A DNA stretch of 38,988 nt from Candidatus Blautia excrementipullorum. GTDB taxonomy: Bacteria > Bacillota > Clostridia > Lachnospirales > Lachnospiraceae. Location: NCBI GenBank assembly GCA_019118645.1, contig DWYN01000084.1, positions 1 to 38,988 of the forward strand, written 5' to 3'. Numbering within the stretch: the stretch's first letter is position 1; each line of letters starts with the position of its first letter. The notes beneath the pieces were generated by a model. It was not told the origin of the DNA, ran no database searches, and saw only the letters and a program-made list of their open reading frames with translations. Of the stretch, positions 7,987 to 29,560 are shown one piece after another. A program made the position numbers and the translations under genes.

Positions 7987-10900
7987 TTATTCTCTGGGCG
8001 GCTTTCCCGTAATTTTATAATACAGATTCAATGTCTGTTTCCTGTCTCCGCCATAGAGAAAATAGTAGTCAATCTGATCCGCTCCGTCTGTATACACATA
8101 ATTTCCATACATGGGAACCATACAGCACATGACTGTCCGCTCCGCTGCCGTCCCGATACCGTATCCGTATTCAGAAAGCAGAAGAGGCATGCGCATTTTT
8201 CCGCCCCCGAAACTGATATATCTCGCCTTCTGATTCATCCACTGCAGATCCTCCGCCAGGATCCCCTTTGCGGATATCTTTTCCCCTTTTGCCCAGTCAA
8301 AATAATTCCAGGTCTCAAAAGATACCGATGCTTCGATCCGGCGGGGCTGATCCGGTCTTTCCGCCAGCAGCCGATTTCCGTTTTTCGCAAAGAACTGAAG
8401 CGCTCCGCTTCCTTTATCTGCGATAACGGAAATTCTCTCTGTCGCCATTTCCACCAATTTTTTTCCTGCCCTGGCTGTCCACTTAACAGGCTGCTCCGGT
8501 TCATACTCCCAATATCCTTTTCGGAACCGGATATCTGTACCTTTTCGAAACTGTACCCGGATAATGCTTTCTTCCACAGGAGTCAGCTTCAGAACGCCGC
8601 ACCTGCTGATCAGAAGGAGAGATTTTTTTGTTCTTTTCACAGTGTGGACAGAAACGTCCAGCCAGTCCTTATTCTTCGGGCGAAGCACGGAAACATCCGG
8701 GCATTCTCCGAAATGATATCCTGACTGATTTACCGGCTGCCGGCTGCTGTCCTTCCGTAACGCCGGTTTTTTTTGTGTTCTGCCGCATTCTGAATCCATG
8801 CGGTTTCCGGGCATTTTTCTCTTTTCCGGCGCCGCAGCGGATTTCCGCACTTTTTCATCTTCCAGCGTCTTAAGCTTCTTTTCAAGCGGCACCGGTTTTT
8901 TGATCAGGTCTGTCAGGTCTCCCCGATGGACTGCCGTCAGTTCGTGGAGCGCCCGGGTTGCCGCCACATACAGAAGTTTCACATACCTGTCTTCGGCAGG
9001 ATAGTTCTCCCCGGAGGGATCATAAAGCAGTACTGCATCAAATTCCAAACCTTTTGTGTATTCTACAGGAAGAATCATCACTCCTTCCGTAAAATCAGCG
9101 GTTTCCGGATCGCTGTCAGCCAGCGTGATATTTTTTTCAAGATATGCTCTTACCGCTGCCGCTTCTTCCTCGTCTCTGCATATTACTGCAATCGTATCAC
9201 GGCCTTTTCTCTGCCAGTTTTCGATGCATTTCTGCGTTTCAGCCAGCATTTCTTTCTCATCGGCACACGCTGAAATACATACCGGACTTCCATGGCGGCT
9301 GATGGGCTCCGCAGGGTAGACGGCAAAGCTCCCGTGCCGAAGAATCCCGGCAGCAAAATCCGAAATTTCAACAGTATTGCGGTAGCTTCTTTTCAGGAGG
9401 CAGAAGCCGTCCGGGTCTGTCGGCAGCATCAGACGTTTTAGCTCCTCCCAGTCATTCAGCCCATAGCCATAGTAAATATTCTGAGACACATCTCCCATAA
9501 TGGTGTATGTGCATCCCCGCAGGCAATAGGACAGAGATTCATATGCCATCATTCCAAAATCCTGCGCCTCATCAATAATCACATGGCTTGCCTCCCGGAT
9601 TCCGTCTGTCTCCTTGATGCGTTTATAGAGATAGGCCAGCGCCGCCAGATCATAAAGGTCAAATTTTTCTTCCGCAAACGTCACATTCTTCCCATTTTCC
9701 GCCTGAATCTTTAAAAACTGCCGGTAAAGTTCAAATATGGATCCTTTCCACTGCTTCTTCCCAAAATGCCTTCGATACCTGCGGTACAGTTCCTTTTTTT
9801 CTTCCTGCGAGTAAGATACATTTTTGCCGGTCAGTTCATTCTCCAGCCTGGAAATCAGCATATTGTTCAGCATATTGATTTTGCCCTGTACTGAAATCAA
9901 AGGATTTTCCGAAAGGCAGCGGCTGACGGCGGCTTCGTCCATCAGAAGCACTCCGTTTTTCTCCAGGCGGACTTCTTCCCGGGAAACCAGCGTATTTTCA
10001 TATTTCCGGCAGAACTGTTCCAGATCGCGGAACCAGTCGCTGCCGCCCTTTATCCGGGCTGTCTGGTCCTTTTTGTCAAGGGGGCGGATACTGTATACTT
10101 CAGGATTCCAGTCCTCATAGAGAAGCCTTACAAACAGCTGCTCCATAGTCATCTGAGGAACCCCGTACACATCCAGATCCGGAAGAACACTGGTAATATA
10201 ATTCAGCAGAATCCGGTTGCTCCCTATAATATAGAAATCCTCCGGGCGAAACTCTTCCTCATAGTTATACAGAATATAGGAAATACGATGCATGGCTACC
10301 GTCGTTTTTCCCGAGCCTGCCGACCCCTGGACGATCAGATTCCTTTTGGGAGAACGCCGGATCACTGCATTCTGCTCTTTCTGGATGGTTGCAATGATTT
10401 CCCCGAGTACAGCCGTCTTATTTTTTGCGAGGTATTTTGTCAGAAGTTCGTCATTGGCCACTACATCAGAATCAAAGTAATCTTTCAGCCGGTCATTTTC
10501 AATCTCATAAGTTCTCTTGTTCCTCAGTTCAACCTCATAAGTTCCCTCGTTCTTTACGGTATATGTACACCGGCCTGTATTATTCTCATAATAGACTGAG
10601 GCAAGCGGAGCTCTCCAGTCTATGACTACAGGGTCCGCTGTATTTTCAGAAATTCCGACTCTTCCTACATAATAGGCTTCTTCAGGATGATCCTGTGCTT
10701 TAAAGTCAATCCTTCCAAAATAAGGTCTCTTTCTCGCTTTCCGGCACCGAAGCAAATCACGGTTATTTTCTCTGAGCTGAGTCTGCGCGGTATGCAGAAG
10801 CATAAGATTTTCTTTGGCTTCCGTCCCCTCCGCTTCCATAATATCATACATTTCATACAGTTCCTCTGACAGCTGCCGGATCTGCTTCTGCATTTTATCA

Positions 10901-11001
10901 AGATTTTCCTGCGCCAGATGAATCACTCTGCACAACTGCTCTTCCTCGTCCCGCCGGCTGAGCCCCGGAACAGGTCTGCGATTATTCTTCTTTTCTTTCA
11001 T
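7987..11001 (-). CDS. helD: HelD-type helicase fused to GH31 N-terminal-like domain
   Basis: Uninterrupted 1004-residue frame. Residues 1-690 are a superfamily-1 HelD protein, a motor that releases RNA polymerase from DNA: N-terminal coiled coil (about 20-90), VIDWRAP motif near 127, Walker A GSAGSGKT 226-233, DEAQD near 476, GDVSQNIY, LKRSYRNT, GLEFDAVLLYDP and YVAATRALHEL near 680. A basic linker (about 695-760) follows. Residues about 795-1004 then resemble the mutarotase-like N-terminal domain of GH31 glycosidases (strand pattern, SEYGYGIG, IDYYFLYGGD, final LYYKITGKPP) and stop where a catalytic barrel would begin, so no hydrolase activity is expected. Probably cotranscribed with tetR, 45 bases upstream. 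HelD assignment is firm; the second domain is by recalled resemblance. Confidence 0.85.
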   Translation of the reverse strand: MKEKKNNRRPVPGLSRRDEEEQLCRVIHLAQENLDKMQKQIRQLSEELYEMYDIMEAEGTEAKENLMLLHTAQTQLRENNRDLLRCRKARKRPYFGRIDFKAQDHPEEAYYVGRVGISENTADPVVIDWRAPLASVYYENNTGRCTYTVKNEGTYEVELRNKRTYEIENDRLKDYFDSDVVANDELLTKYLAKNKTAVLGEIIATIQKEQNAVIRRSPKRNLIVQGSAGSGKTTVAMHRISYILYNYEEEFRPEDFYIIGSNRILLNYITSVLPDLDVYGVPQMTMEQLFVRLLYEDWNPEVYSIRPLDKKDQTARIKGGSDWFRDLEQFCRKYENTLVSREEVRLEKNGVLLMDEAAVSRCLSENPLISVQGKINMLNNMLISRLENELTGKNVSYSQEEKKELYRRYRRHFGKKQWKGSIFELYRQFLKIQAENGKNVTFAEEKFDLYDLAALAYLYKRIKETDGIREASHVIIDEAQDFGMMAYESLSYCLRGCTYTIMGDVSQNIYYGYGLNDWEELKRLMLPTDPDGFCLLKRSYRNTVEISDFAAGILRHGSFAVYPAEPISRHGSPVCISACADEKEMLAETQKCIENWQRKGRDTIAVICRDEEEAAAVRAYLEKNITLADSDPETADFTEGVMILPVEYTKGLEFDAVLLYDPSGENYPAEDRYVKLLYVAATRALHELTAVHRGDLTDLIKKPVPLEKKLKTLEDEKVRKSAAAPEKRKMPGNRMDSECGRTQKKPALRKDSSRQPVNQSGYHFGECPDVSVLRPKNKDWLDVSVHTVKRTKKSLLLISRCGVLKLTPVEESIIRVQFRKGTDIRFRKGYWEYEPEQPVKWTARAGKKLVEMATERISVIADKGSGALQFFAKNGNRLLAERPDQPRRIEASVSFETWNYFDWAKGEKISAKGILAEDLQWMNQKARYISFGGGKMRMPLLLSEYGYGIGTAAERTVMCCMVPMYGNYVYTDGADQIDYYFLYGGDRKQTLNLYYKITGKPPRE

Positions 11002-11046: not shown

Positions 11047-11676
11047 TTACTCAAACCCCTGGAGGAGTTTTTCAGCCACAGATTTTGTAATTTCGTAGAT
11101 CGACAGAAAAACATAATCCGTATGCGAACGCTCCAGGGCTTCCCTTTGTTTCTCCGTTATCACAGTATAGGGATAGATCCCGAACATGAAAGGAAAAAAG
11201 GCATAAATAAATCCCTGTATATCGGGAACCGTCATCCGGGGAAAAAATTTTTCCAGGCAGCAGCTTACTGCCTGCATGGAGTTCCCATATGCAGTTTTAA
11301 AAGCTATCAGATTTTCCATCCGGCTATTCGCTTCCATGTCGTAATGGTTCATAGACATGAGCTTCAGCAGCCGGCTGCGGCGTTCCAAAGAGTGCGCCAA
11401 TTCATCCGCAAACTGGTCAGATGACATACACTGATGGCTTTTCCTCAGCTCAGTCAGATCCTTAATCCACGCCTCATATTCTCTCTGAAGCAGGGCAAGA
11501 AAAATCTCCTCTTTCGTATGAAAATAATAATAGATCAGCGTTCGGGTAAAGGATGTCTTCGCCCCAATGTCTTTGAGGGTCACATCCTTGAAGTTCCTGG
11601 TTTCATAAAGTTCCGCACAGGCATTGATGATTTCATCCTTCCTGGCCTGGGTCAATTCCTCCGAGCCTTTTGGCAT
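11047..11676 (-). CDS. TetR-family repressor
   Basis: Protein of 209 residues with an N-terminal TetR helix-turn-helix: ARKDEIINACAELYETRNF, VTLKDIGAKTSFTRTLIYYYF, HTKEEIFLALL. The C-terminal ligand domain is not assignable. AAAGGAG lies 8 bases before ATG 11676; the longer frame from 11685 starts on a GTG abutting the ribosome site and is rejected. The promoter upstream is near-perfect and its -35 box lies inside a dyad, the mark of autorepression. The next gene downstream (45 bases) is the helicase fusion, so both should be induced when a ligand releases this repressor (inference). Confidence 0.9.
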   Translation of the reverse strand: MPKGSEELTQARKDEIINACAELYETRNFKDVTLKDIGAKTSFTRTLIYYYFHTKEEIFLALLQREYEAWIKDLTELRKSHQCMSSDQFADELAHSLERRSRLLKLMSMNHYDMEANSRMENLIAFKTAYGNSMQAVSCCLEKFFPRMTVPDIQGFIYAFFPFMFGIYPYTVITEKQREALERSHTDYVFLSIYEITKSVAEKLLQGFE

Positions 11677-11744
11677 AGCTGGCACTCCTTTCGCAAAACT
11701 ATATCAGAAGCAGTCATATAGCGCATTTTTAATCCATTGCAGCT

Positions 11745-11773
11745 ATTATACCCGTTCCTTGACATTGTGTCAA
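11745..11773 (-). promoter_or_regulatory. tetR-helD promoter with operator in the -35 box
   Basis: On the minus strand TTGACA (11773-11768), 17 bp, TATAAT (11750-11745): both hexamers and the spacing match the sigma-A consensus exactly. TTGACA-CAA-TGTCAA (11759-11773) is a perfect 6+3+6 dyad containing the -35 box, so a bound TetR dimer would block polymerase. Confidence 0.85.
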
Positions 11774-14778: not shown

Positions 14779-17349
14779 TCAGCAGGTGGCTCCGCCGATC
14801 ACTGTCTTCTCCAGAATCTGCTTCTTGTCAATTCTGCTGTTCAGAAGCTTATCCTGTACATAATCAAATCCAAGTCTCTCAATGGTATCTGCAAAACGTT
14901 CTCCGGAGATTCCCTCATTGCGGAAGAAGAGAATTGCTCTCTCCACCAGATCAATCACTTCCTCTTCTGTAGCGAAGATTTTGTCAAGAGGCCGGCCTTC
15001 AGCGACTTTCTTGCCCCATCGGCCTCCGATATATACCTTGTAGCCTATCAGAGACTCATTTACCGCGCCGAATGGGCATCTGCCCACACAGCGTCCGCAG
15101 TGATTGCATTTTTCTGAAGGTATCTGGATCTTTCCGTCCTCCAGCGCAGCAATCTTAATCGGACAATTCTCCACTACCTGACATTTCTTGCAGCCCCTGC
15201 ACTTGGAAAGATCGATCTCCGGCAGCCGCTGACCAATAATTCCGATATCATTCAGGTTTGGTTTCACGCAGTTGTTGGGGCAACCGCCCACAGCGATTTT
15301 AAACTTGTGAGGAAGATCTACGCCATGGTATCCGATATAATACAGCTGATGCAGCTTTTCGGAAAGTTCAAAGGTGTCAATCAGTCCGTACTGGCAGGTA
15401 GTTCCCTTACAGGATACCACCGGGCGCACCTTCGATCCTGTGCCGCCTGTTTCCAGTCCGGCTTCTTCCAGAAATGCAAATACGGCTTCCAGATTGTCAT
15501 AAGGCACTCCCTGGATTTCCAGGGTCAGACGGGTGGTCATCGTCACCTCGCCGGAGCCGAATTTCTCCGCTGCCTCAGCTACCTTACGCTGCTCTTCGGA
15601 GGTCAGTTTGCCGTTTCTGGTAATTACGCGGACATTGAATACATCGTCATATCTCTTGTCCTGCAGGCATCCAAGTCCTTTTACACGCTTAATCTCCGCC
15701 GCCGAAAGCTTCTTTCCATTTCGCGGTACTTTTACATCATTAAAAGTCACGCCGCCTTCCAGAACCTTTGTATTTGTATAGCCGTAAGCTTTCAGGCGGT
15801 TCTGAAGGAAATAGCCTCTCTTTCCTTTTGTACATACGAGGAGAAGTTTGGCGTCTTTATCCAGTCCCTCTATCGGTCCGTCCACCGCGGAAAGATCTAC
15901 CCAGCGGGCATTTGCTACTGTCTGCTGAGGCTGCACGTCAATAACTGTATAGTCTTTTGCCGCCCCTGCCGCATATTCTGCGGGGCTCATGGAATTCATA
16001 ACTCCGTCGATTTTGTTCTCCAGTATGTAGCATGCGGTGACAAACGGATGAATCGCTGTGGAGAACGGCGGTGCATATGCAAAATCAAGAGTGTCAAAAT
16101 CATCCAGTTTCATTTCCCGGGAGATTCCCACAACTGCAATATCTGTCATTTTATCTACCGCTCCGGCACCCAGTACCTGGATTCCCAGGAGTTTTCTGGT
16201 GGATGTCTCTGCAGTAAGCTTCACAATAAAGGAAGAAGCGCCGGGATAATAATGCGCTTTGTCATCCACTACACAGATCACAGAAGTCGTTTCATATCCT
16301 GCCGCCTTTGCCTGCTCTTCTGTCAGGCCGGTACGTCCTCCATTCAGAGAAGGAAGCATCCGCACCACTCCTGTGCCCAGGCATCCGCCATAGCCCTTTC
16401 CCGTTCCGTTCATGGCTTTTGCCATGGCACGGGCCGCCAGGTTCGCAGTAGATCCCATAGCAGACCACTGAGCCTGTCCGGTAATGGCATTTTTAACCAT
16501 CGCACAGTCTCCCACGGCATAGATGTCCGGGAGATTTGTCTTCATCTGTGCATCAGTGAGGATCGTTCCCTTAAACATCTCCAGTCCGGAATCCGCCAGA
16601 AATCCTGTAGCCGGACGAATACCGACGGCTATAATCACAACATCCGCAGCTAAAGTTCCGTTTCCGGTAACAACCTTTTCCGCTTTTCCTTCTCCCTCAA
16701 TTCCGTTCAAAGTTGTGGAAGTCAGCACGCGCATTCCGGCTGCCTTTAGCTGTTTCTTTGCATAATCCGCCATCTCAGCGTCAAAAGCATTGGGCGCAAT
16801 CTGGGAAGCCGCATCGATTACAGTTACTTCCAGCCCCTGGGCCATCAGATTTTCGGCAACTTCCAGTCCGATAAATCCTGCTCCGCAGACTACCGCCCTG
16901 CGGCATTTCTTTTCTTCCACATAACTGCGGATCCCTACTGCGTCATCAGGTGTACGAACACAAAATACACCGGGAAGCGTAACTCCCTCAATCGGAGGAA
17001 CAAAGGGAACCGCTCCGGTGGCAATAATCAGTTTGTCGTATGTTTCTGTAAATTCTTCACCGGACTTTTTCTTCAGACAGACAGTTTTTGAAGTACTGTC
17101 AACAGAAGTTGCCTCGCATCCTGTATAAACTTCCGCGCCTGTCAGTCCGGAATACTTTGCCGGGGTATTGACAATCAGGGCGTCCCTGGACGGAATATCC
17201 CCTCCGATATAGTAGGGAAGGCCGCAGCCTGCATAAGAAATGTCTTCTCCCTTGGTAAACACCTTCACCTCTGCGCTCCGGTCACAGCGTTTGAGTTTTG
17301 CGGCTGCTTTTGTTCCGGCAGCTACGCCGCCGAGAATCACATACTTCAT
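14779..17349 (-). CDS. CoA-disulfide reductase-rhodanese-sulfite reductase-like-ferredoxin fusion
   Basis: Single 856-residue chain. Residues 1-440 are a CoA-disulfide-reductase-like FAD/NAD(P)H enzyme (VILGGVAAGTKAA, ISYAGCGLPYYIGG with redox Cys42, VCGAGFIGLEVAENL). A rhodanese domain follows (about 450-545, loop VCTKGKRGYF with Cys near 506). Next is a siroheme/4Fe-4S domain of the sulfite/nitrite reductase type (CKGTTC near 647, GGCPNNC near 688). Last come two 4Fe-4S ferredoxin motifs (CRGCKKCQVVENCP, CNHCGRCVGRCP). It probably couples NAD(P)H to reduction of polysulfide, sulfane sulfur or sulfite in the cytoplasm; the exact substrate is unknown. AAAGGAG lies 9 bases before ATG 17349. 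Divergent from LysR, with its own terminator, so monocistronic. Confidence 0.9.
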   Translation of the reverse strand: MKYVILGGVAAGTKAAAKLKRCDRSAEVKVFTKGEDISYAGCGLPYYIGGDIPSRDALIVNTPAKYSGLTGAEVYTGCEATSVDSTSKTVCLKKKSGEEFTETYDKLIIATGAVPFVPPIEGVTLPGVFCVRTPDDAVGIRSYVEEKKCRRAVVCGAGFIGLEVAENLMAQGLEVTVIDAASQIAPNAFDAEMADYAKKQLKAAGMRVLTSTTLNGIEGEGKAEKVVTGNGTLAADVVIIAVGIRPATGFLADSGLEMFKGTILTDAQMKTNLPDIYAVGDCAMVKNAITGQAQWSAMGSTANLAARAMAKAMNGTGKGYGGCLGTGVVRMLPSLNGGRTGLTEEQAKAAGYETTSVICVVDDKAHYYPGASSFIVKLTAETSTRKLLGIQVLGAGAVDKMTDIAVVGISREMKLDDFDTLDFAYAPPFSTAIHPFVTACYILENKIDGVMNSMSPAEYAAGAAKDYTVIDVQPQQTVANARWVDLSAVDGPIEGLDKDAKLLLVCTKGKRGYFLQNRLKAYGYTNTKVLEGGVTFNDVKVPRNGKKLSAAEIKRVKGLGCLQDKRYDDVFNVRVITRNGKLTSEEQRKVAEAAEKFGSGEVTMTTRLTLEIQGVPYDNLEAVFAFLEEAGLETGGTGSKVRPVVSCKGTTCQYGLIDTFELSEKLHQLYYIGYHGVDLPHKFKIAVGGCPNNCVKPNLNDIGIIGQRLPEIDLSKCRGCKKCQVVENCPIKIAALEDGKIQIPSEKCNHCGRCVGRCPFGAVNESLIGYKVYIGGRWGKKVAEGRPLDKIFATEEEVIDLVERAILFFRNEGISGERFADTIERLGFDYVQDKLLNSRIDKKQILEKTVIGGATC

Positions 17350-17457
17350 AATGTATTTCTCCTTTCGTATCGTTTTATGTACAGGCATATCCCGCTGAAA
17401 TTCTGTGTAAATTCAGCGGAATTGCCGGAACTGCTGGTCTCAGCTTTTCTGAAATCT

Positions 17458-18618: not shown

Positions 18619-21600
18619 TCAGATGCTGACAGCCAGCTCGCCTGACGTTTTCCGGTATTCCGCTTTTTTCCTTCCGTCCGCTTCGTTTCCATACCAGGTT
18701 TCTTTCATATTCATAACCAGCATCTGCAGACGGTTCTCAATATTCGCAAAACTTACGTCCGGGTCATAGTCCAGTGGAAGAATCTGTGCATCCGGATATT
18801 TCTCCTTCAGTTTTTTGGCGATTCCTCTTCCAACCACATGGTTCGGAAGGCAGCCAAAAGGCTGAAGTATAACAAAAGCTCTGCACCCTTCTTTCGCATG
18901 GTGAAGAATTTCTCCCGGTATCAGCACACCCTCCCCGGCGTCAAAGGTATGGTGGATAATCGGATCGCTCTCTTTCACCAGATCCTGCATTCTCACGGCA
19001 GGCTCGTAGAGAGGATGTTCTTTCGCAATACGGTCTGTTGTGTCGTGGGCAAGATTGAAAATATGATCCGCCGTATATAGCCAGGTTTTTTTCCCGATTC
19101 CTCTTTTTAAATGATACTCCTGAATCTGTTTGTCCTGATAGAAGTAGGTCTTTCTGATTACATCGGTCATTCTGGCCTCAATCACCTCGAACCCATTGCT
19201 CTCCAGGTATTTTTCAATATCATGGTTTGCTCCGGGATGGAAATTCAGGAGATATTCTCCTACGATCAGAACTCTTGGTTTTCTTCTGGAGCGGTCATAG
19301 GAAACCTTTCTCATTGTCTCTATTCCTTTGCGGAAGCCTTTTACCGCTCCCGAAATACCGGACTGTTCCATTCCCTCCACAAGGCTGTCCATGGCCTCCT
19401 CAAAAGCGCGCTCCGCGCTTCCTTTCTCCAGTTCATACGGCCGGATCTTTCTCAGAAGCTCTTCCAGAGCGTCAATCATGGGCATGGCAAAGGCAATCCT
19501 CAAGGAAGAAGCCAAATTCAGCCGGAATCCCGGATGCAGATCATGGCTGTCGCAGTCATCGTTGGTCAGAATCGGAACCTGCGGAAATCCGGCGTCATCC
19601 AGAGCCTTCCGCAGCAGCGCGCTGTAATGAGTAAGACGGCAGTCACCAATATATTTTCCCATTCCGATTGCCGTCCGGTCAGGATCATATTTTCCGCTTT
19701 TCAGGGCAGCCAGAGCCTCGCCGATCACAATCTGTGCAGGAAAACAGATATCATTATGTACATATTTCTTACCGAGACGGATAGCCTCCTCGCGGCCGGG
19801 CTGCAGGGAAACCGCCCGGATTCCCTGCCCGCAGAACGCTGCGGACATGATCCGGCTGAAAGCATGGGAAGTGTTGGGAACCAGCACTACCTTCTCTTTG
19901 CGGTCTTCCTTGGTGAATTTCACCGGATAAGGTTCCGGGAGATCGCCGGGAACAGTCTTTTCGCCTCTTCTGCGCTTCATCATTACTGTCTCCAGGAAAG
20001 AGCGGACTCTGATGCGCAGAGGGCCCTGTATATCGCTTTCATCCACTTTAAGGATCAGAGGCGTTTTCCCTGAAATTTCCCTCATCATTCTGACAATCTC
20101 GTCTGACAGATAAGCGTCATGGCCGCAGCCGAAGCTGACAAGCTGCACGTACTCCAGAGACTGGCTTTCCGCAGCCATAACAGAGGACGCCAGCATCCTT
20201 GCATGATAATTATTTACAATATCCAGACGGCTTCTGCTCAGATCCACTTCCTCAATTCCGGGAAGAGAGTCTGCTGTCAGTACCGGAATTCCGTAGCCTG
20301 CAAACATCTCCGGCAGTTCATGATTTACAAGAGAATCGTTCTGATAAGGTCTGGATGCAAGAACAACTGCAAACTTGTTGTCTTTTTCCACCTCGGCAAG
20401 AACGGCCCGGCCTTCTTCTTTCAGTTTTTTCCGGAACGACTTCTGCGCTCTGTTTCCCGCCTCAATGGCTTTTTCTGTCAATTTTCCGGGAATCTGAAAC
20501 TCCTCTTTCATATATTTCGTCAGCTGCTTCTTCTGATCTGCCTCTGTGTACCAGTGAAACATCGGCGCATCAAAGGGAACTCCCCATTGGCCGGCAGGAT
20601 CGTCGGAATTTCGAATCACAAGAGGATATCCCTTCACCACAGCGCACATGGACTGGCTTGTCTCCTCAAGATTTTCTGAAGGAACCGTCGTTATCACCGG
20701 CATAAAAATCCGGTCTGCTCCCTTTTTCACCAGATTCCGGATATGACCGTGCACAAGCTTCGCCGGGAAACAAACTGTGTCTGAAGTAACCGCTGACAAT
20801 CCGTCCTCGTAGATCCTGCGGGTACTGAAATCGGAAAAGCAAACGCCGAATCCCAGAGACTTCCAGAAAGCTGTCCAGAAAGGCGCATTCTCCCAGAAAG
20901 AAAGCACGCGGGGCATTCCCACTGTAATTCCGTTCTTCTCCATAAGCTCCGGATAATCATATTCCTGAAACAGCAGTTCTTTTCTTGTCTGAAACAGATT
21001 CGGAACCTTTTTCATTTTCTGTGTTTTTTCCTTCAGCTGTTCCCTTACTTTTTCATCTTTCGGATTTCCCAGAATTTCTCCTCTTTCGCAGCGGTTATTG
21101 GTAATCCACGAACTTCCGTTGGAAAAAGAAATTACGGTTCGTTTGCAGTGATTGCTGCAGAAGGGGCATGGCATATTTGCCGACTGGCTGTAGGAAAATC
21201 CCTCCAGATCGTCCAGACTGATAAAGGTCTGTTTCTCCGGTTCCTTCTGATGCTGTTCCTTTGCCGTCAGAGCCACTCCGATAGCGCCCATGAGTCCCGG
21301 ATAAGGAGCTCTCGTTACCGGTTTTCCGATATATTCTTCCAAAGCACGGAGCACTGCATCGTTTTCAAAAGTTCCGCCCTGAACTACAATCTTATCTCCC
21401 AGAGAGTCCACATTGGAAAGTCTGACCACCTTGGTAAATACATTTTCTATAATGGAGCGGCAGAGACCGGCCATAATATCCTCCGCCAATCTGCCGTTTC
21501 TCTGTTCCGTGATAATGCTGCTGTTCATAAACACCGTGCACCGGCTGCCAAGAACTGCCGGGTGTTTGGATGAAAACGCAGCTTCCGCAATCTTCTCCGC

Positions 21601-23061
21601 TGGAATATGAAGGGAAGAAGCAAAATTCTCAAGGAAAGAGCCGCATCCGGAAGAGCAGGCCTCATTTACCAGGATATTGGTGATAATGCCGTTCTCCAGC
21701 CAGATGGCTTTCATGTCCTGGCCGCCGATATCGAGAATAAAAGAAGCGTCCTTCACATATTTTTCCGCGGCTCTCGCATGAGCCACTGTTTCCACTGTAT
21801 GGTATTCCGCCTGAAAAGCGTTTGCAAAAAGCTGTTCCCCGTACCCGGTGGTTCCCGCTGCGAGAATATGCAGCCGGAGTCCTTCTTTCCTGTAGCGGTC
21901 CCTCATTTCAATCAGGGCTCGCTTCGCCACATCCAGGGGCGAGCCTTCATTTGGCGCATAAAAAGAATCCAGGATTTCCTCTTTTTCATCAATCAGTACA
22001 AATTTCGTTGTTGTACTTCCGGAGTCAATTCCAAGGTAAGCGTATACATCTTTTCCAGCGGAAGGTTTTTTCCATATGCGAGGAGCTTTTTTGTGTCTGC
22101 TTTCGAATTCTTTTCTTTCAGCGTCTGAACGGAACAATGGCTCCGATTCCTGCTGCTCCCCTTTTTCCATTTCTGTCATTTTTTTCTCAAAAGAAGCAAG
22201 CAGTTCTTCAGGCGTCCGGTCTTCGCTTTTTTTCATCATATTTTTCAGAGAAACTGCAGCCCCGTACGCCACCATAAGTTCCGGATGTTCCGGTACAAGG
22301 ACCTCCTCCTCTGAAAGCTTAAGTCTCTCTGCAAAAACTTTTACAAGTGCAGGGTTAAAAGTCAGGGGGCCTCCCTCAAAGGCCACTGGAGCTTTGATCT
22401 CAAGTCCCTGCGCCAAACCGCCGATGGTCTGTTTTGCAATGGCGTGAAAAGCAGACAGTGCAATATCCTCTTTTGCCACGCCCTGATTCAGAAGCGGCTG
22501 GATATCCGTTTTTGCATAAACGCCGCACCGTCCCGATATGTCGTAAACACAGGAACCTTTTTCTGCCAGCTCCTGGAATTTTTCCACAGGCACCTTCAGA
22601 ACAGAGGCAATCTCGTCCACAAAAGCTCCCGTTCCTCCCGCGCAGCTGCCGTTCATCCGCATATCTGCCACACTTACCGCATGGGTCTCAGGATCTTCCC
22701 TGAAGAAAATCATCTTCGCATCCTGCCCGCCAAGTTCAATGGCTGTTCCGATGGAAGGATACTGCGCCTTCAGGGCTTCTGCGTTAGCTGCAACTTCCTG
22801 TATAAAAGTAAGATTCAGTTTTTCCGCGATTGGCTTTGCCCCGGATCCGGTCATTCCGGTCTGAAGTTTTCTGCCGGGGAACTGTTCTTTCAGCATAGAC
22901 AGCACAAACGCAATACTTTTTACCTGGTCAGCATGATGTCTTCTGTAATCTGAAGCTAAAATTTTTTCGGTTTCCGGCTCCACCACCACGACCTTTGTTG
23001 TGGTGGAACCAACGTCAATTCCGACCAGCAGATTCTGCTCCTTTTCCTTATTTTTCATCAT
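18619..23061 (-). CDS. Giant two-module acyl-CoA dehydratase activase-like protein
   Basis: Protein of 1480 residues. Two ASKHA ATPase modules of the HgdC/BadF type: GIDVGSTTTK at 14-23 and GIDSGSTTTK near 345. Each keeps a cluster-ligand Cys pair exactly 39 residues apart (Cys140/Cys179, and the NEAC/SRC pair of module two), the spacing of HgdC Cys127/Cys166. A Cys motif follows (CPFCSNHC, later NRCERGE), then a DUF2229/HgdB-like C-terminal half (FWENAPFW, VSFGCGHDAYLSDE, CDSHDLHPGF). Relatives use ATP to push low-potential electrons onto 2-hydroxyacyl-CoA dehydratases or double-cubane proteins. No separate dehydratase lies nearby, so the target is unknown. Ribosome site GAGGAAG; ATG 23058 is an equal alternative. 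An unusual hairpin lies in its leader. Confidence 0.9.
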   Translation of the reverse strand: MMKNKEKEQNLLVGIDVGSTTTKVVVVEPETEKILASDYRRHHADQVKSIAFVLSMLKEQFPGRKLQTGMTGSGAKPIAEKLNLTFIQEVAANAEALKAQYPSIGTAIELGGQDAKMIFFREDPETHAVSVADMRMNGSCAGGTGAFVDEIASVLKVPVEKFQELAEKGSCVYDISGRCGVYAKTDIQPLLNQGVAKEDIALSAFHAIAKQTIGGLAQGLEIKAPVAFEGGPLTFNPALVKVFAERLKLSEEEVLVPEHPELMVAYGAAVSLKNMMKKSEDRTPEELLASFEKKMTEMEKGEQQESEPLFRSDAERKEFESRHKKAPRIWKKPSAGKDVYAYLGIDSGSTTTKFVLIDEKEEILDSFYAPNEGSPLDVAKRALIEMRDRYRKEGLRLHILAAGTTGYGEQLFANAFQAEYHTVETVAHARAAEKYVKDASFILDIGGQDMKAIWLENGIITNILVNEACSSGCGSFLENFASSLHIPAEKIAEAAFSSKHPAVLGSRCTVFMNSSIITEQRNGRLAEDIMAGLCRSIIENVFTKVVRLSNVDSLGDKIVVQGGTFENDAVLRALEEYIGKPVTRAPYPGLMGAIGVALTAKEQHQKEPEKQTFISLDDLEGFSYSQSANMPCPFCSNHCKRTVISFSNGSSWITNNRCERGEILGNPKDEKVREQLKEKTQKMKKVPNLFQTRKELLFQEYDYPELMEKNGITVGMPRVLSFWENAPFWTAFWKSLGFGVCFSDFSTRRIYEDGLSAVTSDTVCFPAKLVHGHIRNLVKKGADRIFMPVITTVPSENLEETSQSMCAVVKGYPLVIRNSDDPAGQWGVPFDAPMFHWYTEADQKKQLTKYMKEEFQIPGKLTEKAIEAGNRAQKSFRKKLKEEGRAVLAEVEKDNKFAVVLASRPYQNDSLVNHELPEMFAGYGIPVLTADSLPGIEEVDLSRSRLDIVNNYHARMLASSVMAAESQSLEYVQLVSFGCGHDAYLSDEIVRMMREISGKTPLILKVDESDIQGPLRIRVRSFLETVMMKRRRGEKTVPGDLPEPYPVKFTKEDRKEKVVLVPNTSHAFSRIMSAAFCGQGIRAVSLQPGREEAIRLGKKYVHNDICFPAQIVIGEALAALKSGKYDPDRTAIGMGKYIGDCRLTHYSALLRKALDDAGFPQVPILTNDDCDSHDLHPGFRLNLASSLRIAFAMPMIDALEELLRKIRPYELEKGSAERAFEEAMDSLVEGMEQSGISGAVKGFRKGIETMRKVSYDRSRRKPRVLIVGEYLLNFHPGANHDIEKYLESNGFEVIEARMTDVIRKTYFYQDKQIQEYHLKRGIGKKTWLYTADHIFNLAHDTTDRIAKEHPLYEPAVRMQDLVKESDPIIHHTFDAGEGVLIPGEILHHAKEGCRAFVILQPFGCLPNHVVGRGIAKKLKEKYPDAQILPLDYDPDVSFANIENRLQMLVMNMKETWYGNEADGRKKAEYRKTSGELAVSI

Positions 23062-23289: not shown

Positions 23290-26200
23290 TTATTCGGTTC
23301 TCAGCGCTTTTACCGGATCACTCTTTGCTGCTTTTTTAGAAGGAATCAGCCCTCCCAGCAACGTCAAGAAGACACTCAGCACAATCAGTATTACCGCATA
23401 TCCAGCCGGAAGCACTGCATTGATATCTGTTCTTCCCGCTATGGAATGAATAATCTGGTTGCCCGGGATCAGAAGGAGCAGCGTAATTCCAATTCCCATG
23501 ACTCCTGCACAGAAACCGATAATAAAGGTTTCCGCATTGAACACCTGAGAAACATTTCTTTTTGATGCGCCGATAGCCCTCAGAATACCGATCTCTTTTT
23601 TTCTCTCAAGGACACTGATATAAGTGATAACTCCGATCATAATGGAAGATACAACCAGAGAAATCGCCACAAAAGCCACAAGCACATAGCTGATTACATT
23701 TATGATATCTGTCACAGAAGACATCAGGGTTCCCACCATATCTGTATAGGTAATTGCCTTCTCCTCCTGGCCGGAGGCTTCCATTCTCTCATTATAGCTG
23801 TCCAGAATATTCAGGATCTGTTCCTTGCTCTCAAAATCTTTTGGGTAGATGGAGATTCCTCCCGGTTTATTTTTATCTGCGTATCCCAGCTTTCTGAGGT
23901 TATTCTCGTAAGCAGCATCCTCATTGGACATCATGGAAGTCAAAAGTTCTGTCAGCTCATCCTGATCCATATTTACCTGGATGGCATCCATAAAAGCATC
24001 TTCATCTATGCTGACAGCATTTTCCATAGCGGAACCCATCTGTCCAAGAGCCTGCTGAATGGCATTTGCCATGCTTGTACCAATCTGTCCGGCCGCCTGC
24101 TGCATAGCGCTCCCGATTTTTGCTCCAAGCTGGCTCATAGCTTCCTCCATACCGGAATCCATCTGTTTTTCCACTTCTTCCCGGATACCTTCGCCTTCCT
24201 TATCAAGAATCTCGGAAATCTCTCTGGAAGCACTTTCCAGATCTATTGCTCCTGCAATATTATTATAAAGTCTCTGCTGTCCGTCCTCTGATTTCAGATA
24301 GTCCAGGTATGCCTCTCCCACAGCCGCGGCGCCGGGAAGCACATTCTCTGCCGCATATTCCTGATAACCGGCCAGGATTGAAGAAAAAATCTTCTGAACC
24401 TGATCCGGCTGAATCTGGATATCAATACTGTCCCGGATCGCTGCTTCCGCCTGCGCCATCAGATTCTGCTGCACCTCCGGAAGCTGAAGATAAGCAAGAA
24501 TTGTCGCCACACTGGATTCTTCAATATTATTTTCCTTTGCATAATTCTGGTAATCCGTTACCAGCTGTGCGGCAATGCCCCAGAGCCGTTCTGTTGGAAC
24601 TGTGACACTGACTCCGGACGATATAATCTCTCTGATGCCCTCTTCCAGAATCTTCTGCGCCTCTTCTGTATTCAGATACTCCTGAAAGCTCTGAACCGGA
24701 TTTTTTATTTCCAAATCTGAGCCCTCCGGCAGGCTTTCCTGAAATCCCTCGATCATGTCCCGGGTCATTGACTCCATTTCTTCGGCGGAAACTGCCAAAT
24801 CAATTCTCTGGCTGAGATCGCCTATCTCCTGCTGCAGTTCCCCGGCGATTTCCGGCAGCATAGAGGAAAAATCAATATCCATCATACTGCCCAGGTCCAT
24901 CTGGCTTCCGTCCATCTGAAAGATTCCCTCCAGAGAAGAGGTGTCCAGATCTGCACCGGAAATCCCGGACAAGTCAAGAGACGAAAAAGCATCCTCGTCC
25001 ACCTGAAAAGCCTTGGCCATGGCGTCTCCATCCACGCTGAAAAGAGAAGATACATCAAACTCGTTTTCATCCTCTTCTTCTCCAAACTCTTTCCCGCTGA
25101 ACACATTGACATTCTTATTCTGAAGCTGATTTTTTACAATCCGGCTGCCGGCCGCTTCCTCGATTACGTGGCTGGTCAGCTCCGGCGTATAGCCGATTCC
25201 GCTGGTCAGCATAGCAATATCCGTGCCTTCTGCAGGTTTTACAATTCCTACAATCGTGAGATCCTCCCCCGCTTTTACGGTCTTTTCCATATAGTCCTCA
25301 TCGCCGGATTTGTCCGTCCAGACATTGTAGTCTTCATCATATTCATAGAGATCCGCACTGTTGACAAGTTTAAACTGGATTCCCAGAATATCGTCATAGG
25401 AGTAGGCATGGATATCCTGAGGCGTTTCCACATTCTCTTCCTCTGCAAACTGCTCTACCATCTGATCCAGTTCCTCGCCGTCCCGGAGTCCCAGAGTATA
25501 CAGCATCAGATCACTAATATTCCCATTTGATGTAAGAACTAGAACACACTCGTTATATTCCTCCGGCCAGCGGCCCGCCATAACATCATACTGGCCTTTA
25601 TACAAATCTTCGTCTGCAGGCATCTCATAGAACATATCTGTATTCATACTCATAGACATCAGACTATTTGTGCTTTGTCCGGATCCCAGTCCAAGGGCGG
25701 AAAAAGAGCGGTCCGGGTTCACCTGCCGTATGCCGTCCTTTTCCTCCAGAAAGATCTGAGGAGATACATTGTATGTGTACTCTATGGAGTTCACATAATC
25801 ATCCATGCCGCTTTCTCCGCTGTCCAGAAAAGTTTTCAGCGACTCCAGGTCATTGGAATCCATTTTCGAAAACATATTGGTCACCATCTCGTTGACGCCC
25901 ACCTGCCCTTCTCCTGCGGAAGCGGCTCCATTTGCGGCGTCAATCATCATAGACGTGAGATCCACCCCGGTACTGCTGATCTCCAGGGGATATTCAGAAA
26001 GAGTATCTTCCTCCACGGACTGGATATAATCATTGACGCCTGTCGACAGCGAAAGAATCAGGGCAATCCCGATAATACCGATAGAGCCGGCAAAGGAAGT
26101 AAGAATGGTTCTCGCCTTCTTTGTCCTTAAGTTGTGAAAACTCAAGGACAAAGCCGTAAGAAAGGACATGGAAGATTTTCCCATATTTTTATGGCGGGGA

Positions 26201-26901
26201 GGTTCCATTGCCGATTCATCCACCTCATAAGGCATGGAATCAGATCGAATCTTTCCGTCCCGCAGATTTACAATGCGGGTGGCATACTGCTGGGCCAGCT
26301 CCGGATTATGCGTTACCATCACTACCAGACGTTCCTTTGCCACCTCTTTCAGAAGATCCATTACCTGTACACTGGTATCACTGTCCAGAGCGCCGGTCGG
26401 CTCGTCTGCCAGAAGAATTTCCGGATCGTTTACCAGGGCTCTGGCAATGGCCACCCTCTGCATCTGTCCGCCGGACATCTGGTTCGGCTTTTTGTGGATC
26501 TGCTCTCCCAGCCCTACCTGTTCCAGAGCTTTTTTTGCGCGTTCACGGCGCTCACTCTTTGAAATTCCGGATATCGTAAGGGCCAGCTCCACATTTGACA
26601 AAACCGTCTGATGGGGAATCAGATTATAGCTCTGAAAAACAAATCCAATGGTATGGTTTCTGTAGGAATCCCAGTCTTTGTCTTTATATTTTTTGGTGGA
26701 TATCCCATTGATGATCAGATCGCCGCTGTCATACCGGTCGAGACCGCCAATGATATTCAGAAGAGTGGTTTTTCCGGAACCGCTGGGACCAAGAATGGCG
26801 ACAAACTCATTTTCCCGAAGATTCAGACTTACGCCGTCCAGGGCTTTCTGAACGAGATTTCCGGTTTTATACTGTTTATATATCTGTTGAATCTGAAGCA
26901 T
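23290..26901 (-). CDS. ABC ATPase-FtsX permease fusion with large external domain
   Basis: Protein of 1203 residues. Residues 1-230 are a MacB/LolD-type ATPase: Walker A GPSGSGKT 38-45, signature MSGGQMQR near 145, Walker B LLADEPTGALD near 168. One membrane helix follows (about 262-290), then some 780 external residues and a C-terminal three-helix FtsX domain (ISVLERKKEIGILRAIGASK, ending SDPVKALRTE). Type VII ABC proteins do mechanical work on substrates outside the membrane (peptide resistance, toxin or lipoprotein handling). The external part is unusually large and has internal repeats: DxDA(M/F)xxA(F/I)QV near 622 and 963, and three (K/Q)(I/M)G(S/T)xMxxA units near 920-958. AAAGGAAGAG precedes the ATG. 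Substrate unknown. Confidence 0.9.
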   Translation of the reverse strand: MLQIQQIYKQYKTGNLVQKALDGVSLNLRENEFVAILGPSGSGKTTLLNIIGGLDRYDSGDLIINGISTKKYKDKDWDSYRNHTIGFVFQSYNLIPHQTVLSNVELALTISGISKSERRERAKKALEQVGLGEQIHKKPNQMSGGQMQRVAIARALVNDPEILLADEPTGALDSDTSVQVMDLLKEVAKERLVVMVTHNPELAQQYATRIVNLRDGKIRSDSMPYEVDESAMEPPRHKNMGKSSMSFLTALSLSFHNLRTKKARTILTSFAGSIGIIGIALILSLSTGVNDYIQSVEEDTLSEYPLEISSTGVDLTSMMIDAANGAASAGEGQVGVNEMVTNMFSKMDSNDLESLKTFLDSGESGMDDYVNSIEYTYNVSPQIFLEEKDGIRQVNPDRSFSALGLGSGQSTNSLMSMSMNTDMFYEMPADEDLYKGQYDVMAGRWPEEYNECVLVLTSNGNISDLMLYTLGLRDGEELDQMVEQFAEEENVETPQDIHAYSYDDILGIQFKLVNSADLYEYDEDYNVWTDKSGDEDYMEKTVKAGEDLTIVGIVKPAEGTDIAMLTSGIGYTPELTSHVIEEAAGSRIVKNQLQNKNVNVFSGKEFGEEEDENEFDVSSLFSVDGDAMAKAFQVDEDAFSSLDLSGISGADLDTSSLEGIFQMDGSQMDLGSMMDIDFSSMLPEIAGELQQEIGDLSQRIDLAVSAEEMESMTRDMIEGFQESLPEGSDLEIKNPVQSFQEYLNTEEAQKILEEGIREIISSGVSVTVPTERLWGIAAQLVTDYQNYAKENNIEESSVATILAYLQLPEVQQNLMAQAEAAIRDSIDIQIQPDQVQKIFSSILAGYQEYAAENVLPGAAAVGEAYLDYLKSEDGQQRLYNNIAGAIDLESASREISEILDKEGEGIREEVEKQMDSGMEEAMSQLGAKIGSAMQQAAGQIGTSMANAIQQALGQMGSAMENAVSIDEDAFMDAIQVNMDQDELTELLTSMMSNEDAAYENNLRKLGYADKNKPGGISIYPKDFESKEQILNILDSYNERMEASGQEEKAITYTDMVGTLMSSVTDIINVISYVLVAFVAISLVVSSIMIGVITYISVLERKKEIGILRAIGASKRNVSQVFNAETFIIGFCAGVMGIGITLLLLIPGNQIIHSIAGRTDINAVLPAGYAVILIVLSVFLTLLGGLIPSKKAAKSDPVKALRTE

Positions 26902-27136: not shown

Positions 27137-28093
27137 TCAGATTTTTCCTATTCCATTCATTGCCGTCAAAACTTCCATAAGGATAAAAAGAATCATCCAT
27201 ACAGTGGTAAAGGCGTAAAAATAATATCTGCCTCCAATTCTGTTTTCTCTTCTCCACCTTCCAATCGCCTCTCTGTTCAGAAAAAGGATCACACAGGCCG
27301 CAGCAAAAAAAGCGGCCGGTATCCCATATTCCAGCACAGATTTTAATGGTTCCGCCGTCACTCCGGCAATTCTTCCCAACAAATCCGAAAATACCAGATT
27401 ATTAAGAAGATGAATCAGTATCGACCATTTTAGGGAGTACTCCACCGCCACATAACCCAAAACAAGCCCGGTTCCCGCGGCAAACAATCCCTGAACAAAA
27501 TTTCCATGCATCAGCCCGAAAAGTACCGCTGATATGACAATCGCAAATTCTTTTCCATAAGGCAGCATTCTTCTCAGAACATATCCCCGGAATACCAGTT
27601 CCTCCGCTGCCGGAGCCGCCAGCGTACTGTAAATAAACATAGACAAAGTGGTATTTACCGAAGATGCACTCTCAACCGATTTGGCAAGAGTGTATCCAAG
27701 GGGATTCAGAAGCAGTTCCGCCAGAGACGCCGCTGCCGCAAATACCGCCTGGCAGGACATAAACACACAGAACACAGCCAGAAAGGCACTCGTTTTCATC
27801 GGTTTCCATGTATGAAACATCTCCTTTATCATACAGTTCTTTCTGTATCGGAGCGCCAGATAGAGCAGTCCTGCCGCCGTACCGGCAAGACTCAGAAGGC
27901 CGGCATTGTCCATGGCATGATTCAGCAGCACCTTTCCGATCTGGTCTGCGCCTTCCACTGCTCCCCGCCCGCCTGTAAGAGCCGTACTTTTACACAAAAC
28001 ATATAAAAATGTGACCCCTGTGAGTATTATCTGATAAATAAAAATGCTTCTCGCAGTTTGGTTTACCTGTTTTTTCAGTTCTTTTTTCATCAT
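27137..28093 (-). CDS. CPBP-family intramembrane metalloprotease
   Basis: Protein of 318 residues with about eight hydrophobic segments. The three CPBP (Abi) motifs are present: EELVFR in APAAEELVFRGYVLRRM, FGLMHGN, and HLLNNLV; Glu and His side chains form the metal site. Family members cleave in the membrane (prenylated-CaaX processing in Rce1, peptide or pheromone handling and bacteriocin immunity in Firmicutes). AGGAG lies 5 bases before ATG 28093 (28090 is an equal alternative); the longer frame to 28306 overlaps the kinase gene and is rejected. A LytTR-type double box and its own -10 precede it, so the adjacent two-component system likely controls it. Confidence 0.88.
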   Translation of the reverse strand: MMKKELKKQVNQTARSIFIYQIILTGVTFLYVLCKSTALTGGRGAVEGADQIGKVLLNHAMDNAGLLSLAGTAAGLLYLALRYRKNCMIKEMFHTWKPMKTSAFLAVFCVFMSCQAVFAAAASLAELLLNPLGYTLAKSVESASSVNTTLSMFIYSTLAAPAAEELVFRGYVLRRMLPYGKEFAIVISAVLFGLMHGNFVQGLFAAGTGLVLGYVAVEYSLKWSILIHLLNNLVFSDLLGRIAGVTAEPLKSVLEYGIPAAFFAAACVILFLNREAIGRWRRENRIGGRYYFYAFTTVWMILFILMEVLTAMNGIGKI

Positions 28094-28126
28094 CCGTTCT
28101 CCTGTTCCGACTGTTTTCTTTATCAC

Positions 28127-28193
28127 ACTATAAACCAAAAAGAAAGAGAGCCTCCGTTTTTTGTTGTAAACGGTGCTCTCTTTGTTGTGAACG
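28127..28193 (-). promoter_or_regulatory. LytTR-type direct repeats and promoter of the CPBP gene
   Basis: On the minus strand GACGTTCACA and ACCGTTTACA lie exactly 21 bp apart, two helical turns, within longer repeats CGTTYACAACAA (28182-28193 and 28161-28172). The published LytTR consensus is [TA][AC][CA]GTTN[AG][TC][TA]; the inner copy matches 10 of 10 and the outer 9 of 10. Downstream, TATAGT (28132-28127) lacks a -35 box at 17 bp (GGAGGC there), as at AgrA- or VirR-dependent promoters. The ATG is 33 bases further. Confidence 0.7.
28135..28183 (-). terminator. Terminator between kinase and CPBP genes
   Basis: AAAGAGAGC pairs with GCTCTCTTT (28143-28151 with 28175-28183) and, inside, CCGTTT with AAACGG (28154-28159 with 28168-28173). 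On the minus strand it is followed by CTTTTTGG. It begins 11 bases after the kinase stop and shares bases with the LytTR boxes, so the protease gene needs its own promoter. Confidence 0.7.
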
Positions 28194-29543
28194 TCATTGC
28201 ACAGGAAAATCCTGTAAGAAAAGAAGGATTTCCAAACTGTAAATCTTCCTTTTGTCTTTCTCCAGTATCTGTCTGTAAATACGCCCTTTATATTTTTCCG
28301 CAGCATATATCATGTTCAGAATTCCAAGCCCATGGTCTTCCTTTTCTTTTTTCGCCGTAGTCCCCGGCGGCAGAATCACTCCGCTGCTGACCGGATTCTG
28401 AAAAGTCAGTGACAAAATTCCTCCCTGCTGCCTGATATAAACCGAAATCCATTTCGGACTTTCTTCCTGGTTCATCAGAGACTCCAGTGCGTTATCCAGG
28501 GCATTGGCAAATATAGTGCAGATGTCAGTCGCGCGAACAGTGAGAGGATCCGGCAGTTTTCCCTCCAGTCTGATTTCAATGTCTCCTGCCCTGGCAATGA
28601 GGTTTTTCTCATTCAATATTGCGTCTGCAATTTCATTTCCTGTACGAAGTTCCCTCCCTGTTTCTCCCAGCTCCTCCTGAAGCTCCTGTATATAAGCCTT
28701 TACTTTTTCCAGGTCGCCCCGGCCAGCCAGCTCTCCAAGGCAGAGAAAATGGTTTTTCATATCGTGACGAAATCTTCGTATATTTTCTTCCCGTTCCTGA
28801 TAAGCGCGAAAATGGTTTAGTTCCGTCTTCAGATAATGCTCCCCAACCGTTGTCATATATTGAAAATAATCCTTTTTATTTTCCTGCTGTATCAAAACAA
28901 TGGCGGATATCTCAAGAAGAATCACTGCAAAGCACCCAAATCCCGCGAAAATTCTGGACGCCTTCTCCTCCATTCCCATTTCCTTCACGGCAATTATCAT
29001 GAAGCCGGCAGCAAGAAGAAATACACCTGAAATATTCAGGAAAAATTCTTCCCACCTTCCAAGCTTCCTGTACGGAGCATCCAGACGGAGCCTATGACGG
29101 ATTTTCTGTCTGTTCCAGTATAAGAGCCCTGCTCCCATCCAGAAAATCACATCCACCGCATAGGTCCAGGAGCTTATCTTCGGATAGTTTCCCGACAATG
29201 TATATGGAATTCCAAAAAGCAGGGCCAGAAAGCCAGTAAGGAATCCCATAGTTGGAATCAGAAGACCGATTCCCGCTATCCTGTGCGCTTTTCTTGTCAG
29301 GAATATATGGATGCAGAAAAAAAGCGTAGGGATAAGAAACGCCGTCCCCTCCGACCCCGGCCCAATACAGACCTGGGTCAGAAAAGATGCCAGGAAAAAA
29401 GCTGCAAGATACCATGCCCTGACGTTTTTGTCTGTAAGAGCCGGCTCCAGATATACAACTCTTTTTATAAACAAAAGCGTCAGGAGAATCTCCGCGGAAG
29501 AAATCACTTGATAAACGCATAATAATAAAATTCTGAAGTTCAT
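28194..29543 (-). CDS. AgrC-like sensor histidine kinase (GHKL, HPK10 type)
   Basis: Protein of 449 residues. The N-terminal half has about six or seven membrane helices, as in AgrC/BlpH peptide sensors. The cytoplasmic half has the HPK10 phospho-acceptor segment RRFRHDMKNHFLCL and an N-box FANALDNALESLMN, then a C-terminal glycine motif (HGLGILNM). GGAGGG lies 4 bases before ATG 29543; the longer frame from 29567 overlaps the regulator. The response regulator stop lies 17 bases upstream, so the two form one operon. No AgrB/AgrD-type pheromone gene is visible nearby, so the signal is unknown. Confidence 0.9.
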   Translation of the reverse strand: MNFRILLLCVYQVISSAEILLTLLFIKRVVYLEPALTDKNVRAWYLAAFFLASFLTQVCIGPGSEGTAFLIPTLFFCIHIFLTRKAHRIAGIGLLIPTMGFLTGFLALLFGIPYTLSGNYPKISSWTYAVDVIFWMGAGLLYWNRQKIRHRLRLDAPYRKLGRWEEFFLNISGVFLLAAGFMIIAVKEMGMEEKASRIFAGFGCFAVILLEISAIVLIQQENKKDYFQYMTTVGEHYLKTELNHFRAYQEREENIRRFRHDMKNHFLCLGELAGRGDLEKVKAYIQELQEELGETGRELRTGNEIADAILNEKNLIARAGDIEIRLEGKLPDPLTVRATDICTIFANALDNALESLMNQEESPKWISVYIRQQGGILSLTFQNPVSSGVILPPGTTAKKEKEDHGLGILNMIYAAEKYKGRIYRQILEKDKRKIYSLEILLFLQDFPVQ

Positions 29544-29560
29544 TTTTCCCTCCGGAATGT

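Follow-up and report, generated by a model that had tools for sequence, protein, structure and literature searches.

The minus strand of the window (the whole 38,988-nt stretch of contig DWYN01000084.1 from Candidatus Blautia excrementipullorum) carries, at positions 7987–11001, one gene in which a HelD-type motor of helicase superfamily 1 (SF1) is followed by a domain of the kind found at the N-terminus of glycoside hydrolase family 31 (GH31) enzymes. On balance, we favour the reading that an acidic, sugar-facing GH31 beta-sandwich was captured once and became a basic module binding nucleic acid or RNA polymerase, which would give the Lachnospiraceae, a family mainly of gut bacteria, a new HelD isoform. 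Sequence comparison, predicted models and a tree bear out the capture and the tethering of the domain.

A HelD-type motor with a GH31-type tail

The gene is a single open frame of 3,015 nt (1004 codons and a stop), continuous as the original prediction, made from the letters of the window alone, had described it without naming a strand. Domain scans place SF1/UvrD families over residues ~207–689. Specifically, the Walker A motif GSAGSGKTT (residues 226–234; positions 10300–10326) and motif II, DEAQD (residues 477–481; positions 9559–9573), are followed by motor domain 2A with motifs V and VI (residues ~538–700; positions 8902–9390), delimited by domain scan, alignment and phmmer. Among the 51 sequences aligned, K232 and T233, the DEAQD motif, R541 and R683 never vary, and motifs IV–VI are present beside Walker A and B, as in SF1 motors. 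A phmmer search against the PDB matches Bacillus subtilis HelD (6wvk_H) at E 2.8e-73 in two blocks (residues 62–294 and 441–701), in keeping with the complete HelD-type SF1 motor claimed originally. The blocks flank an insertion (residues ~295–440; positions 9682–10119) that splits domain 1A, is mostly helical in the predicted model and would be the equivalent of the clamp arm. At the N-terminus, the model shows a putative secondary-channel-arm domain (residues ~1–203; positions 10393–11001) with a long helical hairpin at residues 16–91, its limits being set by analogy with B. subtilis HelD as given in the available part of PMC7749167. The arm and the split 1A domain are both features of HelD proteins. 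In a Foldseek search with the full-length model, the seven best matches are to HelD from B. subtilis and Mycobacterium smegmatis, headed by 6wvk_H and 6zca_H, and GH31 structures start at rank 33. The top NCBIfam model is HelD_BACSU, at 353.2 bits against an equivalog cut-off of 419; because the score is below that cut-off, we call the motor HelD-type and not a HelD orthologue.

The motor is followed by a linker (residues 701–764; positions 8710–8901) that is predicted to be disordered and flexible, with predicted local distance difference test (pLDDT) scores below 50 at residues 714–753. The basic linker foreseen between motor and tail is indeed there, with a net charge of +10 and an isoelectric point (pI) of 10.2 in the window protein. 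Across the tailed proteins, the median linker pI is 9.6 and linker length varies from 18 to 180 aa.

The tail (residues 765–1004; positions 7990–8709) is assigned to the GH31 N-terminal-type beta-sandwich by Pfam, PDB profile search, predicted model, Foldseek and alignment. On its own, the window tail matches Pfam PF13802 (Gal_mutarotas_2) at E 0.007–0.01 with 16.6–17.0 bits, under the gathering cut-off of 27, and 30 of 65 tails individually match this family at E ≤ 0.01. A profile built from the 65 aligned tails finds GH31 alpha-xylosidases in the PDB at E 8.8e-13, 2.5e-11 and 2.8e-7. The original prediction had proposed a GH31 N-domain-like tail without catalytic part, ending where the barrel would begin, and had called for structure prediction and structural search of the tail alone. 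The predicted tail model has a mean pLDDT of 93.6 and a predicted template modelling score (pTM) of 0.92, and all 50 Foldseek matches listed for it in the PDB are GH31 enzymes, some of which are unlabelled there and are presumed by us to belong to this family. Query template modelling scores (TMq) to the 20 best matches are 0.68–0.77. An alignment with the N-domains of 15 true GH31 enzymes shows the tail spanning the N-domain up to the motif LTGK, from which the enzymes run on into the barrel; the tail ends with LYYKITGK, so the frame stops at the barrel boundary, and the catalytic (beta/alpha)8 barrel is absent from the fusion protein. From sequence and model, we regard the tail firmly as a complete GH31 N-terminal beta-sandwich, supported at the level of the family though the single-sequence match is weak. 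A standard HelD C-terminal domain was rejected as an identity for the tail: nine untailed relatives end 0–2 (n = 7) or 13–15 (n = 2) residues past the motor.

The fusion is a real gene. Scanning 84,980 species genomes yielded 251 relatives, of which the best 80 loci were kept; two of the six peptides used lie in the tail, which favours tailed genes and makes the core-profile count given below the fairer one. The joined gene is intact in 76 of the 80 loci; in three others (L040, L057 and L067) a contig end truncates it, and in one (L061) it is split over two frames. In Hungatella hathewayi DSM 13479 it is part of a complete chromosome, and further hosts include Kineothrix alysoides, Catenibacillus scindens and Roseburia faecis. 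The objection raised with the original prediction, that misassembly had joined two genes, could have drawn support from the draft state (184 contigs) of the window's own genome. Misassembly is excluded, and we give it practically no credence, because intact copies recur in loci of other records, including a complete chromosome.

Three short frames emerged from the family search. Two (G111 and G069) are cut by contig ends, and in the third (G212; L151/L201) the tail is out of the motor frame: a motor of 749 aa and a tail of 323 aa occupy two different frames that overlap on a 3.5-Mb contig, either by sequencing error or as a natural split. In a further genome (G423), the tail match has one internal stop.

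Carriage of the fusion by mobile elements was considered and rejected. A plasmid search gave two weak matches, labelled 'TIM-barrel domain-containing protein', and a phage search gave one record, MT836747.1. This 8.9-kb record, deposited as 'Bacteriophage sp.' from human faeces, is unverified and unannotated; it contains an intact tailed HelD of 1077 aa (L227, 982–4215) and probably represents a bacterial contig misclassified as phage.

Distribution, origin and selection

Within the genus, 6 of 64 genomes hold the tailed gene (G000, G004, G028, G038, G056 and, in two copies, G039), and all six also carry a canonical HelD with 30–32% identity. Within the family, by which we mean the GTDB-based grouping, a core profile (E ≤ 1e-100) detects the HelD lineage of the fusion in 66 of 397 genomes, 32 with tailed and 34 with untailed forms only; G420 holds both forms. 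The tail is present in 33 of the 397 genomes overall, the 33rd being G069, where it lies at a contig end (the counts of 33 and of 32 and 34 were made by hand from the search listings). Among the strong matches in these 397 genomes, there is no free-standing or otherwise fused tail.

Sampled genomes of the order, class and phylum were searched with the tail profile at E ≤ 1e-20, a threshold at which divergent tails could be missed. The order sample gave 11 matching genomes of 392, all of the same family as the window; the class sample gave 3 of 391, two of them through complete GH31 enzymes from another family; and the phylum sample gave 1 of 348, which is the window's own genome. No fusion was thus found outside the GTDB-based Lachnospiraceae in these samples at this threshold. 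NCBI names for the 80 hosts give Lachnospiraceae for 62, three other families for one each (L015, L064 and L066) and no family for 15; L015 and L066 correspond to G755 and G316, which belong to the window's own family in the GTDB-based grouping. The question put with the original prediction, how common the tail is and whether one clade holds it, can be answered as far as sampling reaches: the fusion forms one clade in one GTDB family.

A core tree of 134 cores was computed by a quick search with support from the Shimodaira–Hasegawa-like approximate likelihood ratio test (SH-aLRT) alone. It leaves out cut genes, short and identical rows and 21 of the 29 canonical rows, and its 97 'tailed' rows include G212. 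In this tree, the tailed form is nested within untailed HelD relatives, and two changes are needed, one gain and one apparent loss. The starred branches force one change only, and the loss, in G060, rests on branches under the star limit. The G060 protein (L155/L090; L155 6021–8333) is placed inside the tailed clade and ends 15 residues past the motor, and no tail remnant was found at E ≤ 10 within 15 kb, so that the tail was apparently lost secondarily. When the tails are compared with the 15 GH31 N-domains, a branch with support 100/100 sets all tails apart. Furthermore, tail distances track core distances among 96 proteins (r = 0.92), with none of 999 permutations as high. Because the tails nest and group together and their distances follow those of the cores, a single capture of the GH31 domain, which then travelled with its motor, is most likely. 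Copies of the genus lie apart in the tree (the window with L022, G004 with L055), which suggests horizontal movement of the gene.

The tail evolves faster than the core, with a median pairwise distance of 0.59 against 0.38. In 20 close pairs, the ratio of nonsynonymous to synonymous substitution rates (dN/dS) is 0.06–0.25 for the tail in all 20 and 0.05–0.21 for the core; of the 19 pairs with a linker value, 17 have the linker above the core, at up to 0.99. Some of these pairs have diverged so little (tail dS as low as 0.01) that their values are unsure. Purifying selection of this kind implies that the tail is kept for something.

The highest-scoring GH31 enzymes come from another family of the class (L163–L166, 156–164 bits), the best of the window's own family reaching 133. 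In six genomes of the genus, a canonical HelD of 683–710 aa follows a complete GH31 gene, 60–520 bp downstream of it and in the same orientation: L149 (G015), L150 (G056), L223 (G014), L224 (G038), L225 (G028) and L226 (G016). In L149, a 132-aa frame stands between the two genes, and in the window's own genome canonical HelD and GH31 are on separate contigs (L156 and L157). An origin of the fusion from such a neighbouring pair is unsupported, since the order there is GH31, then HelD, and since the best-scoring GH31 enzymes belong to the other family.

Lost sugar-site features and the role of the tail

The 15 GH31 N-domains used as a control were the near relatives at hand, 13 of them from the fusion's own bacterial family. 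Over 215 shared columns, all 97 tails have a net charge of +1 to +13 (median +7) and all 15 enzyme domains one of −14 to −3 (median −11). A genome-wide bias does not explain the switch, since 13 of the 15 controls share the bacterial family. Counting the entire tail with its end leaves 96 of 97 distinct sequences positive. For the HelD core, which is acidic, the median net charge is −19. The greatest gains of lysine or arginine in the tails include positions 844, 847, 905, 908, 912, 927 and 937, of which 912, 927 and 937 fall in the former N-loop region.

This region is represented by residues 911–937 (positions 8191–8271), a segment that aligns with the GH31 YGLGQ/N-loop region and would correspond to the N-loop. 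It is now tail-specific and partly basic. In glucosidase II, as in other GH31 enzymes, the N-loop helps to form the active-site pocket, with Asp303 on the substrate (available part of PMC4742823). The motif lining the sugar site is absent from 93–100% of the 97 tails: the GH31 residues aligned with window residues 911, 912, 914, 918, 923, 933 and 936 occur in 15/15 enzymes and in 0–7% of tails. The tails have instead K912 (73%), K925 (74%), A926 (99%), R927 (81%), S930 (97%) and R937 (81%), and C960 is found in 98%. After residue 892 (positions 8325–8326), the compared GH31 enzymes have a 31-residue run that is missing from the tails.

We propose that a second HelD-type isoform of the Lachnospiraceae captured the whole GH31 N-terminal beta-sandwich once and kept it C-terminal on a flexible basic tether. 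HelD pries open RNA polymerase with two arms and frees nucleic acid, according to the available parts of PMC7749167 and PMC7749165. By analogy, the motor of the fusion would wedge its two arms into a stalled RNA polymerase and open it, and would then release nucleic acid and depart with ATP. The tail, without sugar-pocket loops or barrel and now basic, would clamp nucleic acid beside the stalled complex, either flanking DNA or the released transcript, and may thus raise residence time or stop displaced strands from rebinding. Our confidence that the tail is an exapted, tethered clamp for nucleic acid is evenly balanced.

Several observations weigh against the clamp. The basic surface would also fit docking on acidic parts of RNA polymerase or on the protein's own acidic core; the full-length model positions the tail relative to the motor with low confidence (pTM 0.60); one tail (L160) has a net charge of −2 over its whole length; canonical HelD adjoins a whole GH31 gene in the six same-genus genomes, a second and independent HelD–GH31 link; and the most conserved tail-specific residues include the uncharged A926, S930 and C960. 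These residues point to some specific partner, as would suit a tail that docks on RNA polymerase or on a factor bound to it, in the manner of the Tudor-like C-terminal domain of PcrA/UvrD. The layout resembles that of PcrA, in which a folded beta domain follows a poorly conserved stretch (available part of PMC5397179). We hold docking to be possible but distinctly less probable than the clamp, since the fold differs from Tudor domains, the arms of HelD already bind polymerase (available part of PMC7749167), so that an extra anchor is less needed, and the charge reversal suits nucleic acid at least equally.

The original prediction had also named a glycan or a glycosylated antibiotic as a candidate ligand, besides nucleic acid. 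Nucleic acid fits the charge reversal, whereas a tail that still binds a small sugar, a glycan or a glycosylated antibiotic and so gates the motor is unlikely. The GH31 fold, the TetR gene with an operator-like palindrome at the window locus and the six HelD–GH31 neighbourhoods would favour such binding, but the GH31 pocket is formed by barrel and N-loop (available part of PMC4742823) and the barrel is absent here, the seven residues of the enzymes are hardly retained, and TetR is not conserved. An inherited sugar-sensing role is likewise unlikely because the N-loop motif and the 31-residue loop are lost and the charge is reversed. A shade less probable still is autoinhibition, in which the basic tail would fold onto the acidic motor until polymerase or nucleic acid displaces it: the opposite charges of the core and of the mostly basic linker and tail, and the flexibility of the linker, would permit this, but the low full-length pTM leaves such docking unsupported and linker length varies tenfold (18–180 aa). 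That the tail is a functionless passenger of the gene fusion is very improbable. Its faster evolution and its apparent loss in one lineage would agree with a passenger, but the low dN/dS in 20/20 pairs contradicts it, as do the persistence of the tail among deeply diverged proteins, for which the tree shows one apparent loss, and the new conserved residues.

The window locus and known systems

A TetR-family regulator (positions 11047–11685, minus strand; Pfam TetR_N 2.4e-9, TetR_C_34 8e-15) lies 45 bp upstream of the fusion on the same strand. It is preceded by a perfect sigma-70-type promoter, TTGACA-17-TATAAT (positions 11745–11773, minus strand), and a 15-bp perfect palindrome, TTGACACAATGTCAA (positions 11759–11773), overlaps the −35 element. 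The palindrome was spotted first and tested afterwards; it is modest evidence, since 11 of 100 shuffled versions of the window contain one when a single mismatch is allowed, and it is missing from the results of a search for arms of at least 7. An autoregulated TetR, as the original prediction had it, forming a two-gene operon with the fusion is plausible from the sequence in the window genome, whereas induction by a small molecule is less likely as a feature of the system at large. Upstream neighbours were scanned at 51 loci (the window and 50 of the 69 found), and TetR_N, which is not among the families matched at least twice, was matched by the window alone, so that TetR is peculiar to this locus and outside the conserved system; a TetR operon as a family trait was rejected. 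Among neighbours at 76 loci, the window TetR has one weak relative (29%). No conserved upstream partner was seen among the 51 loci scanned, the commonest families being Aminotran_1_2 (4), CorA (3) and DegT_DnrJ_EryC1 (3). On the downstream side, the analysis was limited to listing the neighbours and comparing them with those of the window gene.

Elsewhere in the window, all on the minus strand, positions 14779–17388 encode an 869-aa protein with a pyridine-nucleotide disulphide oxidoreductase domain followed by nitrite/sulphite reductase domains, with a divergent LysR gene at 17595, and positions 18619–23061 encode a 1480-aa BadF/BcrAD-type activase protein with DUF2229. Positions 23290–26901 and 27137–29567 include a frame of 1203 aa that combines an ABC ATPase with an FtsX-like permease domain at its C-terminus, adjoining a CAAX-type protease and a GHKL-domain protein.

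The original prediction knew of no described role for a HelD–GH31 pairing, and no open-access paper describing such a fusion was found, judged by titles and the beginnings of abstracts among the matches listed. In the available part of PMC8655204, the size variation of HelD is attributed to the arms, and no HelD above 872 aa is among those given. The same paper reports that the Clostridia compared, two exceptions aside, have HelD without the delta subunit of RNA polymerase, and asks why bacteria keep several HelD isoforms. It is speculation that the tail makes up for the missing delta subunit. A tailed isoform with a separable domain offers a concrete handle on the question of multiple HelD proteins. 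If our reading is true, it is a clear case of a sugar-enzyme domain reused in transcription, with donor fold, lost residues and charge switch visible in the sequence.

Among known systems, the fusion protein is closest in its motor half to class I HelD of B. subtilis (6wvk/6zca), a two-arm SF1 motor with which motifs, N-terminal arm and split domain 1A align, except that ~300 extra residues are present at its C-terminus. HelR of Actinobacteria, which has been linked to rifampicin, also has a HelD-type motor, and stretches of the window protein match HelR models, but at scores far under their cut-offs (144/1100 and 134/750 bits). PcrA/UvrD resembles it as an SF1 motor that works on RNA polymerase and bears a C-terminal beta domain (available part of PMC5397179), but belongs to another motor family and has an unrelated tail fold. 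With the N-domains of GH31 alpha-xylosidases and alpha-glucosidases (YicI 1we5, 5zn6 and 7kmp), the tail shares the entire beta-sandwich fold up to the barrel boundary, whereas the barrel, the N-loop motif and the 31-residue run are missing from it and its net charge is reversed.

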